From Nitrospirota bacterium (lineage in GTDB: Bacteria; Nitrospirota; Nitrospiria; Nitrospirales; Nitrospiraceae), in contig JAUXVD010000016.1 in assembly GCA_030684575.1 (NCBI GenBank), positions 62,001 to 126,000 on the forward strand: a stretch of 64,000 nucleotides of DNA, read 5' to 3'. This document shows positions 41,703-48,994 of this stretch, piece by piece (within the stretch, counting starts at the first letter, position 1; each line of letters begins with the position of its first letter). Under the pieces are notes generated by a model. It ran no database searches. It was not told the origin of the DNA and saw only the letters and a list, made by a program, of their open reading frames with translations. The position numbers and the translations under genes are program-made.

Positions 41703-41875
41703 GTGTATTGTCCCTCTGAATTGGTTACCCGCGCATTGGATAAATCCTGTCCATGGTCAGCCGATTTGTCCGTTGTGCCGGTCGTGTCATGCTTGGTAGA
41801 TGTAAAAGTAAGCCTTGCATAGGGCAGGGTCGACTCGTGTTTTTCTTATCATCATACTTATATTTGGAGGTTCTT

Positions 41876-42100
41876 ATGAAAAAGGCAAGCGGGTTTCTGG
41901 CGTTGATGGCATTCCTCAGCTTCGGCACGATGTCCACCGTGGCGTTTGCTGATGGGGATAAGAAGGAAGAGCAGAAGGATAAAGGCGGCCACGTGGTGAT
42001 GTTGAGCGACGATAAGAAGGAAGAGAAGAAGGACAAGGATGGCCACGTGGTGTTCAGCGACGACAAGAAGGATGAGAAGAAGGATTCGGCCGGCAAGTAA
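41876..42100 (+). CDS. Small exported protein with charged repeats
   Basis: 74 residues from ATG 41876, eight bases after TGGAGG. A signal peptide (FLALMAFLSFGTMSTVAFA) leaves a mature part of about 50 residues made of two and a half repeats of DDKKEEKKDKDGHVVFS type. The mature protein is almost all Lys, Asp and Glu with HVV cores. A strong terminator-like hairpin follows. Function unknown; an ion- or polymer-binding periplasmic peptide is conceivable. Confidence 0.7.
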   Translation: MKKASGFLALMAFLSFGTMSTVAFADGDKKEEQKDKGGHVVMLSDDKKEEKKDKDGHVVFSDDKKDEKKDSAGK

Positions 42101-45412: not shown

Positions 45413-46705
45413 CTAAAAACGCATGGATCGTGATTGTGGCGTGAGTGGCGGCGACTCGTTCTGCGCCGACGGTGAGGCCGAGATGACGACCGTCAATCGG
45501 CGGTGCGCGTCCCGTAGCGACTGCTCCACCTCCTCCGGTGTCGTTCCCCGTGCCAGGAGGAACCCCAGGTAACGCGTCCCTTCCGGGAGCGGGACGAGTT
45601 CATCGCCAGGCTGTGCGGTGATCGTCAGTTCGACAATCCCTGGTACGGCTCTCGCGTCAGCTTGTCCCCGTACGTCACTCAGCCTGCCAGCATATGGGAT
45701 AGGGAGCATCATCACTCCCGCCGCATGCTCCTGTCTGGTCAGGGTCGGGATCGGCATCCGCAGCGCATGGCGGATGATCAGCTCTTCGAGCGACATGCCG
45801 GAGGCGAAATCAAGCATACTGGAACAGCGGCCACCGATCGCCCGCGCTGCCATCTCAATGACCCACAGGCCATCGGTATTCACACGAAACTCTCCATGCA
45901 CCGGCCCTTCCTGTAGTCCCAGGGCCAGCGCCGTTCGCTCAGCACAGTCGAGAATCTGTTGCTGGACCTCAGCCGGAAGGCGCGAAGGGGTCACATAGAT
46001 CGTCTCTTCGAAAAAAGGGCCATCCAGTGGATCGGGTTTGTCGAAGAGCGCCAACATCTGCAATGTGCCGTTCGTGAGTAACCCTTCCAGCGCCACTTCG
46101 CATCCTGGCACAAAATCCTCCGCGAGGATCCAACGGGCCTGCTCATCGCGCGCAGCCCAACCCAAGTCGGTGAGGAGCGCGCCGACACGGTGGAATGCCG
46201 TACAAAACTCTTCCTCATCGTTCGCACGAATGACCCCACAACTGGCGGAGAGGATCAGCGGTTTCAGGACGCAGGGATAGTCCACCTGCTTTGCGAACGT
46301 TCGTGGATCGCCGTCGAGGGGGTAGACGCGATGGTGAGGCACGGGAATACCCTGCCTGGATAGGCGCTCCCGCATCTCGCGTTTATTACCGGTGGCTGTG
46401 ACGGAGGCAACAGAATTGTGGGGGAGCCTCAGAGCTTCTGCGATCACTGCTGCCGCGACGGCGGTTCGGTCGTCGACGCCGATCACCGCATCGATCGGGT
46501 GTTGTCTGGCGAATTCGGCGGCGGTGCGTGCGGCCGCCTCTGGATGGTGCAGGTCAAGCAGCAAGACATCGTCCGAGGAGATCGGAACGCCTTCGGCAAC
46601 CCGCTCCATGCCCACGGTTACTGAGACGGGCACCAGGCGGGCCGCTTCGAGGAATGCCTCTGCTCGGTAGGTCGTGGCCGGCAGAAGCAAGAGCAGTCTC
46701 GGCAT
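45413..46705 (-). CDS. ATP-grasp enzyme of the CCAEP radical SAM operon
   Basis: 430 residues with a classic ATP-grasp layout. The N-terminal preATP-grasp part (IDAVIGVDDRTAVAAAVIAE) is followed by NKREMRERLSRQGIPVPHHR, the lysine in YPCVLKPL, a Ser-rich loop (LILSASCGVIRA), and the metal-binding stretch GPVHGEFRVNTDGLWVIEMA with AARAIGG. Such enzymes join a carboxylate to an amine or thiol using ATP, as in peptide or cofactor assembly. It is the third gene of an operon with a radical SAM protein and a DUF169 protein, nine bases downstream of the latter. Confidence 0.87.
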   Translation of the reverse strand: MPRLLLLLPATTYRAEAFLEAARLVPVSVTVGMERVAEGVPISSDDVLLLDLHHPEAAARTAAEFARQHPIDAVIGVDDRTAVAAAVIAEALRLPHNSVASVTATGNKREMRERLSRQGIPVPHHRVYPLDGDPRTFAKQVDYPCVLKPLILSASCGVIRANDEEEFCTAFHRVGALLTDLGWAARDEQARWILAEDFVPGCEVALEGLLTNGTLQMLALFDKPDPLDGPFFEETIYVTPSRLPAEVQQQILDCAERTALALGLQEGPVHGEFRVNTDGLWVIEMAARAIGGRCSSMLDFASGMSLEELIIRHALRMPIPTLTRQEHAAGVMMLPIPYAGRLSDVRGQADARAVPGIVELTITAQPGDELVPLPEGTRYLGFLLARGTTPEEVEQSLRDAHRRLTVVISASPSAQNESPPLTPQSRSMRF

Positions 46706-46714
46706 GATATCTGT

Positions 46715-47437
46715 TTAGCCGGCGATAGGGGTGGCTGTTCCTGCGCGTCTTCGGTGAAAGGCTTCTAACTGCCGATTCGCCTCGGCGATGATCGACAGTT
46801 TATCTACCACGTCGACCAGTTTTGCGCCTGGGATCGTGTAATAGCCTTCGTCATCCCCGAGCCCGGTGTAGACGCGGTTGCCGATGCAGCCAAAACTGCT
46901 GGCCGTCTGTTCCGATTGCAGTGTTTCCGGAATGATGGCGCAGGTCGGCCGCCCCATGGTGGCGCTCCCGCCTGCGATGCCGGCGGACTGTGCAGCCTCT
47001 GCCAGCAGCATCAGTTGCCTGACGGTTCCCCGGATCAGGACCAGGTCTGGGGTGAAGGTTGCCTGTGTCATCGGCGCATAGAGTGCCACGCGAAAGGGTT
47101 CTTGCCGACGCGGGATCGTCGGAATATCGGCCATCGTAAGGTACTCCAGTCCCACCATGGTCTCGACGAGCCCGTTGAGCTCAGTCGCGACCTGTGGTGG
47201 TAGATCCACACCATGGGTATGGGCACCGACCGGACAGGTATAGTGGTCCGAGGCTTCGGTATAGAAGGTCTGGCCTTCCGCGGCAAGTTTCCAATAGCCG
47301 CATCCTGCCGGTGCCGTGGCGGTGACCCGTGGAATATCCGCCGGGGCTGTGTCTCGAAACGCAATTGCCACTGGAGATCGCTTCAATCCCAATAGTTCCT
47401 GGATCTTGGTGCCCTGTGTCATCAGTTCAGCTTGCAC
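46715..47437 (-). CDS. DUF169 family protein
   Basis: 240 residues, GTG start with GAGGGGG upstream. The DUF169 pattern is clear: LGLKRSPVAIAFRDTAP, PAGCGYWKLAAEGQTFYTEA, HYTCPVGAHTHGVDL, and the later TMGRPTCAIIPETL and FGCIGNRVYTGLGDDEGYYT. Cysteines in these blocks are conserved in the family as I know it and could bind a metal. The biochemical function is not established. It lies between the radical SAM and ATP-grasp genes of one operon. Confidence 0.85.
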   Translation of the reverse strand: MQAELMTQGTKIQELLGLKRSPVAIAFRDTAPADIPRVTATAPAGCGYWKLAAEGQTFYTEASDHYTCPVGAHTHGVDLPPQVATELNGLVETMVGLEYLTMADIPTIPRRQEPFRVALYAPMTQATFTPDLVLIRGTVRQLMLLAEAAQSAGIAGGSATMGRPTCAIIPETLQSEQTASSFGCIGNRVYTGLGDDEGYYTIPGAKLVDVVDKLSIIAEANRQLEAFHRRRAGTATPIAG

Positions 47438-47473
47438 GATTCGTCCCCCTCTTGATGTGTTGTCACCAACATT

Positions 47474-48994
47474 CTAGATCTCTCCATGCCCCTTTGTCAG
47501 GAGCGGCTTAAACTGTCGGGTCGTTGGTTCAGCGCAGCAGAACCAGGACTCCGTGAGACGAGGTGGTTTTTGACGATTGAGCCTGGCGGGCGTTGGGCGA
47601 GTCGAGGGACTCGTTAGACGTCCGGCCATCTCATGGGCCACAGTACGAATGCGATCAAAGGTCAGCATCGCGTCTGTCTCGTCCTTTGCACTGGCCTCCA
47701 CGATCCCACTTACTGCCTGATGCAGCCGGTCCATCCGCTCGTCCGGATGTGTCCAGGGATATTGAAATCCGGCCTGATCGAGCGCACCGAGAAACTGTCG
47801 AATATCAGATTGGTCGAGCAGCGCCGATCCTGGAGGAACCAGGAGGCGAATGCTCAGTTGGACCGGATCGGTTGCATCGATCAGGTCATGCATGTCCACC
47901 ATGTCTAACATGTAGAGGTAATCGTCCAGGCTGGTCCAGGGTGTAAACGCGACGAGCGACGGGCGAAGGGCGATACCGGCCTCGCGTAGAATGTTGAGCG
48001 CGGAGATGATGTCGGCCCCCGTATGGCCCTTCTGGAGCACCTCCAGAACAGGGTCGCTGAACGACTCTACGGCGGAGATCACGAACAGGCATCCCTGCGC
48101 GCGCAAGTCCGGCATCAGGGCACGGCGCTTCAAGAGATGCTCGATTTTTGCGGTGAAATCGAACGTCAGGCGTGGGAACTCTTCATGCATGGCGCGAACG
48201 ATGTTCAGGGAATGTCCTGGGCCGTTTAAGAAATCAGGATCGCCAAACGTGATATGGGTGGCGCCTGCTTGCACCTGGCGCCTGATGTCTTCCAGGACGA
48301 CGGACTCAGGCACGAGCACGAAGCGTCCGTCATAGACCGGCACGATCGGGCAATGGAGACAGTGATGGAGACATCCGCGGCTGGCTTCGACGTATCCGAC
48401 CAGCCGTTCGGCGCCCTGCTCTTCGAGCCGGGCATACCGGTCCAGCATCGGGAGCCCTCTGCGACTTGGGATGGGATGCGGGACCGCTGACGCTGTTGAG
48501 GCATACCCACGCTGCAGCGAGGGGCTGACCATTCGGTGTCGTGAGCTGACTCCTTCGAGGAGGTTGATGGCCTGATTCCGATCGAGTGTTTCGAGGAGTG
48601 ACCGCAGGGGAACCTCATACTCTCCCCCTACGACAGAGTCGGCGAGTGTCTGAAGTAAATAGTCCGTATTGATCGAGGCATACAGCCCGTAGAAGCAGAT
48701 GTGGCAGGCTGGATTCATCGTCCGGATCAATTCGGCGACTCGCACGCCCAGCCGGAGCGCCGTATGCATGGGCACTGAGATGCCGACAAAATGTGCGAGC
48801 CTGAGGGCTGCTTCATCCAGGTCATCAATTGCGATGTCGAGCCCGGTCGGCGCAAATCCTGCCTGTTCGAGAAATCCCATCGGTTGAGCAATGCCGATGG
48901 GTTGGTGTCCGAGTTCATAACAGGAGATGAGGAGGATTGCGCCGGGCTGTCGCAGGGCTGATCGTCGGTCTGTAGATTCTGTCAGCTGTTCCAT
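47474..48994 (-). CDS. B12-binding-type radical SAM protein with CCAEP tail
   Basis: 506 residues. Residues about 18-135 form a cobalamin-binding-like domain (ISCYELGHQPIGIAQPMGFL). The radical SAM motif is CLHHCLHC (Cys208, 212, 215), followed by ITFGDPDFLNG and FDFTAKIEHLL. Near the end WFCCAEP (Cys486, Cys487) matches a tail that I recall as CUAEP or CCAEP, in which one cysteine is selenocysteine in some relatives; here both codons are TGC. The substrate is unknown. First gene of a three-gene operon with DUF169 and ATP-grasp proteins. Confidence 0.88.
   Translation of the reverse strand: MEQLTESTDRRSALRQPGAILLISCYELGHQPIGIAQPMGFLEQAGFAPTGLDIAIDDLDEAALRLAHFVGISVPMHTALRLGVRVAELIRTMNPACHICFYGLYASINTDYLLQTLADSVVGGEYEVPLRSLLETLDRNQAINLLEGVSSRHRMVSPSLQRGYASTASAVPHPIPSRRGLPMLDRYARLEEQGAERLVGYVEASRGCLHHCLHCPIVPVYDGRFVLVPESVVLEDIRRQVQAGATHITFGDPDFLNGPGHSLNIVRAMHEEFPRLTFDFTAKIEHLLKRRALMPDLRAQGCLFVISAVESFSDPVLEVLQKGHTGADIISALNILREAGIALRPSLVAFTPWTSLDDYLYMLDMVDMHDLIDATDPVQLSIRLLVPPGSALLDQSDIRQFLGALDQAGFQYPWTHPDERMDRLHQAVSGIVEASAKDETDAMLTFDRIRTVAHEMAGRLTSPSTRPTPARLNRQKPPRLTESWFCCAEPTTRQFKPLLTKGHGEI

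Follow-up and report, generated by a model that had tools for sequence, protein, structure and literature searches.

A radical S-adenosylmethionine (SAM) protein with a C-terminal Cys-Cys-Ala-Glu-Pro (CCAEP) tail and a dedicated ATP-grasp ligase are, with very little room for doubt, near-obligate genomic partners that form a two-enzyme module. The three-gene operon found in the window studied here, which also includes a DUF169 gene, is the Nitrospirales form of this module. The window is a stretch of 64,000 nucleotides from a Nitrospirota bacterium (assembly GCA_030684575.1, contig JAUXVD010000016.1, positions 62,001 to 126,000). The module is real and strongly conserved, and points to an undescribed biosynthetic pathway. 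A reading made from the sequence alone had described the genes as one operon, and their coordinates, minus-strand orientation (Table 1) and intergenic gaps are all reproduced, with 36 bases between the radical SAM and DUF169 genes and 9 bases between the DUF169 and ATP-grasp genes.

A search of 295 genomes of the phylum recovers the radical SAM gene from 19 (E <= 1e-60), with 18 matches above the cut-off. The ATP-grasp gene is present in the identical 19 genomes, the weakest match reaching 529.9 bits (profile A2, 18 rows, E <= 1e-50). DUF169 (profile A1, E <= 1e-25) is found in 17 of the 295 genomes, comprising 16 of the 19 with the module and 1 of the 276 others. Eight of the 19 module genomes encode the two enzymes on separate contigs, and the match of the genome sets is therefore not a by-product of linkage. 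Within the genus of the window, the module is patchy, with 3 of the 10 genomes listed carrying it. Fisher p values of 2.6e-30 for the ATP-grasp gene and 1.6e-22 for DUF169 are obtained with the phylum set; the pattern is given more weight than these values because genomes of one phylum are related and because the profiles are partly built from neighbors of the radical SAM gene.

A scan of genome contigs extends the family to 79 named loci with the radical SAM gene. Judged by their record titles, these belong to Nitrospirota, Methylomirabilota/Rokubacteria, Chloroflexota, Gemmatimonadota, Planctomycetota, Ignavibacteria/Bacteroidetes, Myxococcales, Elusimicrobia, Betaproteobacteria, and Actinobacteria-like lineages. 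A genome-wide search for the ATP-grasp gene, covering 34 of the 79 loci and chiefly those without this gene nearby, finds it in 28 of the 34 genomes with at least 336 bits; 24 of the 30 genomes lacking it at the radical SAM locus carry it elsewhere. The order of Dictyobacter (Chloroflexota) shows the same behavior. Here, 38 of 47 genomes contain the radical SAM gene and 39 contain the ATP-grasp gene, divided into 37 with both, 1 with the radical SAM gene alone (a truncated hit), 2 with the ATP-grasp gene alone, and 7 with neither. In some of these genomes, for example, G392 and G344, both genes are located on one contig but megabases apart.

The sequence-only reading had regarded the operon as a pathway and proposed collecting the neighborhoods of CCAEP proteins and of their Cys-selenocysteine (Cys-Sec) counterparts, the CUAEP proteins, for DUF169 and ATP-grasp genes. 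This survey does not refute it: the ligase accompanies the radical SAM gene in 19 of 19 genomes of the phylum and 37 of 38 of the Dictyobacter order, and DUF169 does so in 16 of 19. The pathway reading is supported by a co-occurrence that is very strong also where the genes are unlinked.

Table 1. Genes of the operon in the window
Gene	Position	Strand	Product
CCAEP-tail radical SAM gene (NF040546)	47474-48994	minus	506 aa
DUF169 gene (PF02596, COG2043)	46715-47437	minus	240 aa, GTG start
L-amino-acid-ligase-type ATP-grasp gene	45413-46705	minus	430 aa (PF18130, PF13535, PF18603)

The radical SAM family and its relation to ArsL

The radical SAM protein of the window is a member of NF040546, the NCBIfam family of CUAEP/CCAEP-tail radical SAM proteins, with a score of 668.7 bits over positions 1-467 of 468 (curated cut-off, 500 bits); it is the one protein of its genome above this cut-off. 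The CxxxCxxC cluster motif is formed by residues 208, 212, and 215. The C-terminal tail reads LTESWFCCAEPTTRQF, in which WFCCAEP occupies residues 484-490 and the cysteine pair is Cys486-Cys487.

A survey of the tail in 98 listed loci, some of whose contigs were fetched twice, shows the pattern C(C/U)A in 87, divided into 76 Cys-Cys and 11 Cys-Sec forms. Of the remaining loci, two have CCSEP, and the other nine are truncated or frameshifted or escaped the script. At all 12 UGA loci examined, an in-frame UGA follows the Cys codon and is followed by Ala-Glu-Pro, with the next stop 13-27 codons on, which bears out the earlier claim that Cys-Sec replaces Cys-Cys in some relatives. SelB is found above its cut-off in 8 of 11 genomes with the selenocysteine tail and in 8 of 17 with the cysteine tail. 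Single-strand folding after the UGA of the 12 loci, as a test for a selenocysteine insertion sequence hairpin, gives z values from -5.2 to +0.25, mostly weak and mostly no better than shuffles. In the Dictyobacter order, 24 of 38 radical SAM matches hold an in-frame TGA, counted anywhere in the match. The annotation of the CUAEP gene of Thermomicrobium roseum (L124 7962-9398), one of the 12 UGA loci, ends at the in-frame UGA, and the frame runs on into Ala-Glu-Pro and beyond; judging from this frame, the annotation is truncated at a likely selenocysteine. At a further locus (L029 9986-12271), a single open reading frame (ORF) of 761 amino acids spans both the radical SAM and the DUF169 sequence, through either natural fusion or sequencing error.

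The AlphaFold2 model of the protein has a mean predicted local distance difference test score (pLDDT) of 90.7 and a predicted template modeling score of 0.90; tail residues 481-490 have a mean pLDDT of 87. The best structural match is AprD4 (Z 26.9, root mean square deviation [rmsd] 3.8, 414 residues aligned), which is not known to use cobalamin. This is followed by MgmA (Z 25.4, rmsd 3.8, 370 aligned), OxsB (Z 25.2, rmsd 4.8, 445 aligned), and TsrM (Z 24.4, rmsd 3.3, 403 aligned), where Z values within 1 are counted as ties. These four matches indicate the fold of a B12-type radical SAM enzyme, from which use of B12 does not follow. The earlier description of the protein as B12-type thus stands for the fold, but the score for the B12-binding domain PF02310, 31.1 bits, falls below the cut-off of 32.1.

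ArsL acts in arsinothricin biosynthesis, where it transfers the 3-amino-3-carboxypropyl (ACP) group from SAM onto As(III). To our knowledge, no other enzyme of this clade has a reported reaction, which in ArsL is a rare SAM cleavage. ArsL (NF040542) is the second-best NCBIfam family of the window protein with 319.7 bits, the third-best reaching 41.2. ArsL, and not a generic B12 enzyme, is its nearest known relative, a point absent from the sequence-only reading. The identity with five plasmid ArsL-type proteins is 32-37%, and 56 of 97 conserved columns, derived from 51 CCAEP cluster representatives, are identical in at least 4 of the 5, among them the columns of the cluster motif and of the two tail cysteines. 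These sequence comparisons show the CCAEP family as a sister of ArsL that shares most of the conserved core and the C-terminal Cys-Cys. Both families further have the CxxxCxxC motif of radical SAM enzymes and often a ligase-type ATP-grasp gene nearby. In contrast to ArsL, with its RCCLKC tail, the proteins described here form their own clade, carry a CCAEP or CUAEP tail, and are not seen within an arsenic operon. Assignment of the window protein to ArsL itself is rejected because the score (below the curated ArsL cut-off of 450 bits), the tail (FCCAEP), and the neighborhood all fail. Yao et al. 2024, a subsequent study of enzymology, is cited in PMC12159101.

The ligase, the DUF169 protein, and the iron-sulphur context

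The ATP-grasp protein contains three domains above their gathering scores, PF13535 (104.6 bits), PF18603 (LAL_C2; 69.1 bits), and PF18130 (32.8 bits). The profile of its family matches the L-amino acid ligase BL00235 (3vot) best among Protein Data Bank (PDB) entries, with 228.5 bits over profile positions 21-412, followed by BacD with 115 bits. The likeness to these two enzymes comprises the ATP-grasp domain and the LAL C-terminal domain and runs along almost the entire chain. The window ligase nevertheless belongs to a distinct family, whose members are 39-75% identical to it, compared to 22-31% identity with the 12 other ligases tested.

An ATP-grasp gene also lies near the ArsL-type gene in five of six plasmid regions opened, the region of Pseudomonas amygdali being without one. 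These ligase genes (L126 430-1662, L127 735-1958, L128 5566-6771, L136 6703-7767, and L137 6455-7771) stand in clusters with the RCCLKC-tail protein on plasmids of Alicyclobacillus, Priestia, Pantoea, and Klebsiella, where ArsR- or ArsM-type genes are also present; from this gene content, such clusters may convert arsinothricin-like amino acids to peptides. The ligases of the two settings were expected to be sisters. This relationship is rejected, as the window ligase scores lower against the five ArsL-cluster ligases (37-69 bits) than against seven other plasmid ligases (93-134 bits). Because the two ligase families are not sisters, we read the sequences as indicating that an amino acid ligase was recruited twice, separately, beside enzymes of this clade. 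Two such recruitments are consistent with a clade of enzymes that make amino acids.

The DUF169 protein matches PF02596 with 95.1 bits (cut-off, 27). Four cysteines, Cys46, Cys68, Cys166, and Cys184, are invariant in alignments of 14 and of 21 sequences, in agreement with its earlier designation as a cysteine-rich partner. The structural model has a pLDDT of 92.2. Foldseek gives no confident match in the PDB for it (best E, 0.25), and the best hit of VIA-align has a Z of 5.2 (rmsd 4.2, 100 aligned), a level common by the standard of the tool. At least three subtypes of DUF169 are linked to the module, with the gene placed on either side of the radical SAM gene. In published sources, a DUF169 gene is listed in a table of the YedE context of a Slackia-type genome (PMC5322559), interruption of a DUF169 gene in Desulfovibrio leads to high fitness under nitrate (PMC4001038), and DUF169 occasionally adjoins SepRS in archaea (PMC8762117).

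A NifU-domain protein of the NfuA type recurs around ATP-grasp genes that are distant from the radical SAM gene, a partner that the sequence-only reading had not noticed. It consists of a NifU domain with CxxC and a front domain that is either A-type (IscA-like) or Nfu_N, an architecture shared with NfuA and NFU1. Among 132 loci, the NfuA-type protein is encoded in 24 and the ATP-grasp protein in 80, and the two lie within 500 bases of each other in 20, on the same strand in 14 of these. In the phylum, NfuA is present in all 10 module genomes outside the order of the window and in 3 genomes without the module. At two loci (L055 and L065), the radical SAM gene is part of a SUF-type gene run, followed by an Nfu gene, as judged by eye from the ORFs. 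A YggX-like gene (oxidative damage protection protein) is found directly upstream of the radical SAM gene at five loci. The theme common to these partners is iron and iron-sulphur handling.

Proposed mechanism and its alternatives

The steps proposed for the module are inferred from homology and from the identity of the partners; they start from the genomic partnership and from the sister relation indicated by the sequences. SAM would be cleaved to provide an ACP group in an ArsL-like manner; by analogy with ArsL, the chances that the CCAEP protein performs ACP chemistry are about even. The Cys-Cys or Cys-Sec tail, a pair of adjacent soft ligands, would hold or deliver an acceptor X, an assignment by analogy that has slightly less than even chances. 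Transfer of the ACP group to the acceptor, for which arsenic is not favored, would produce an amino acid. The ATP-grasp enzyme would activate a carboxylate with ATP and couple the new amino acid to another one, leading to a dipeptide-like product; formation of an amide bond to an amino acid is the probable reaction of this ligase. The four-cysteine DUF169 protein and NfuA would supply or protect iron-sulphur clusters or electrons. As a whole, this best explanation is given a probability of about 0.4, and the complete mechanistic chain is tentative and falls well short of even odds.

Several observations weigh against this explanation. No enzymology of NF040546 was found, and the proposal of ACP transfer is borrowed from ArsL across the 32-37% identity given above. 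The alignment of the CCAEP and ArsL tails spans a long gap, the two families form separate clades in the tree with support of 100/100, and the window protein stays below the ArsL cut-off. For the partnership itself, relatedness within the phylum leads the Fisher p values to overstate independence. Detection by profiles derived in part from proteins adjacent to the radical SAM gene is biased toward such proteins; the absence elsewhere is not. There is no ATP-grasp match in 6 of the 34 genomes searched, and the ligase occurs without the radical SAM gene in 2 of 9 Dictyobacter-order genomes; these exceptions may be incomplete assemblies. Finally, NfuA is found in none of the nine module genomes of the order of the window, including the window genome.

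The alternative that survives best, although unlikely, is that the protein is a cobalamin-dependent C-methyltransferase of radical SAM class B, with a small amino acid or peptide as its substrate and the ligase extending this substrate afterwards. The B12-type fold with its matches to MgmA, OxsB, and TsrM and the score of 31.1 bits for PF02310 agree with such an enzyme. This score is, however, narrowly below the cut-off, the best structural match is AprD4, which is not known to use cobalamin, and methyltransferase families reach at most 41 bits compared to 320 for ArsL.

A second alternative, an organoarsenical pathway, would have As(III) bound to the tail take up the ACP group to form hydroxyarsinothricin, from which the ligase makes a peptide prodrug or export form. 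ArsL being the sister family, the potential of a Cys-Cys or Cys-Sec tail to bind As(III), and the ATP-grasp genes of ArsL-type clusters are in line with this pathway. The gene neighborhoods were searched with 14 ArsL-cluster proteins as queries, among them ArsL and its ligase as positive controls, against 1744 ORFs of 132 loci. In this set, ArsR, ArsQ, ArsN1, CobW-like, major facilitator superfamily, and aquaporin queries find no match, and ArsM finds one weak match. ArsB matches at five loci, the four listed being Ktedonobacteria, and this pump adds to the points in favor; the two ArsB-like genes scored reach 284 and 265 bits, below the cut-off of 457. Such a gene is seen ~3 kb upstream of the radical SAM gene at L067 913-2232 and L069 5682-6998. 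The arsenite exporter Acr3 is encoded in 5 of the 19 module genomes compared to 145 of the 276 other genomes of the phylum, and the CCAEP and ArsL-cluster ATP-grasp families are not sisters. Arsenic is a possible acceptor but not a favored one because arsenic genes do not follow the module, and the pathway as a whole is quite unlikely.

Modification of a protein is held to be equally doubtful. Amino acids or the ACP group would here be added to an iron-sulphur assembly protein such as NfuA or DUF169, a reading that draws on the 20 loci with NfuA adjoining the ATP-grasp gene, on the SUF setting of L055 and L065, and on the fact that some ATP-grasp enzymes modify proteins. The nearest solved ATP-grasp relatives are, however, deposited as ligases of free amino acids, NfuA is absent from the Nitrospirales module genomes, and a scan of ORFs of at least 70 amino acids shows no conserved short peptide gene. 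A chance arrangement of genes in one lineage, without a common pathway, could appeal to the loss of linkage in many lineages but is contradicted by co-occurrence that persists without linkage, and is highly improbable.

Returning to ACP transfer followed by ligation, one rather unlikely extension has as the product of the module a small ligand of metals or iron-sulphur clusters that is both new and widely distributed. This would be nicotianamine-like or a dipeptide handled by a thiol or selenol, serving iron-sulphur homeostasis together with NfuA, SUF, YggX, and DUF169, and if true would span Nitrospirota, Chloroflexota, Gemmatimonadota, Actinobacteria-like lineages, and others.

A literature search, with subscription papers and preprints outside its scope, found no paper on CUAEP, CCAEP, or RCCLKC, none on DUF169, radical SAM, and ATP-grasp proteins together, and none on arsinothricin with ATP-grasp; the part available of the text of a 2026 selenoproteome review (PMC13188914) does not contain NF04054, NF0405, or AEP. 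NF040546 is a model named without a described function, and the ligase partner and the links to DUF169 and NfuA do not appear in the papers found. The family had its name already; the contribution here is the obligate ligase partner, the association with DUF169 and Nfu, and the findings that speak against arsenic. A widespread sister family of ArsL tied to an amino acid ligase and iron-sulphur proteins, with no tie to arsenic genes, predicts that ArsL chemistry has a second use. An undescribed metabolite or cofactor is predicted in environmental bacteria, named strains of Thermogemmatispora and Dictyobacter among them. A set of two genes is small enough for reconstitution, which makes the role of this (seleno)protein family, named but so far unexplained, directly testable.

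Neighboring genes and minor observations

Some further neighbors are limited to single lineages. A formyltransferase-like gene is located divergently upstream of the radical SAM gene at 11 Ktedonobacteria loci (L078 8580-9557; L067-L069, L071-L076, and L081); it scores 104.8 bits against fmt (cut-off, 201.5). Such a gene is seen in four Ktedonobacteria clusters, a lineage-limited feature. In two Gemmatimonadota loci, a SAM methyltransferase adjoins the ligase, again as a lineage-limited feature. Two Myxococcales loci (L084 3407-4453 and L082 11461-12594) contain a related protein after the radical SAM gene, which at L084 includes an EgtB/SenA-like region (~81 bits). In the window itself, positions 41753-42100 hold a small ORF of acidic and lysine-rich repeat units (SDDKKEEKKDK-like), with a long repetitive ORF on the opposite strand.

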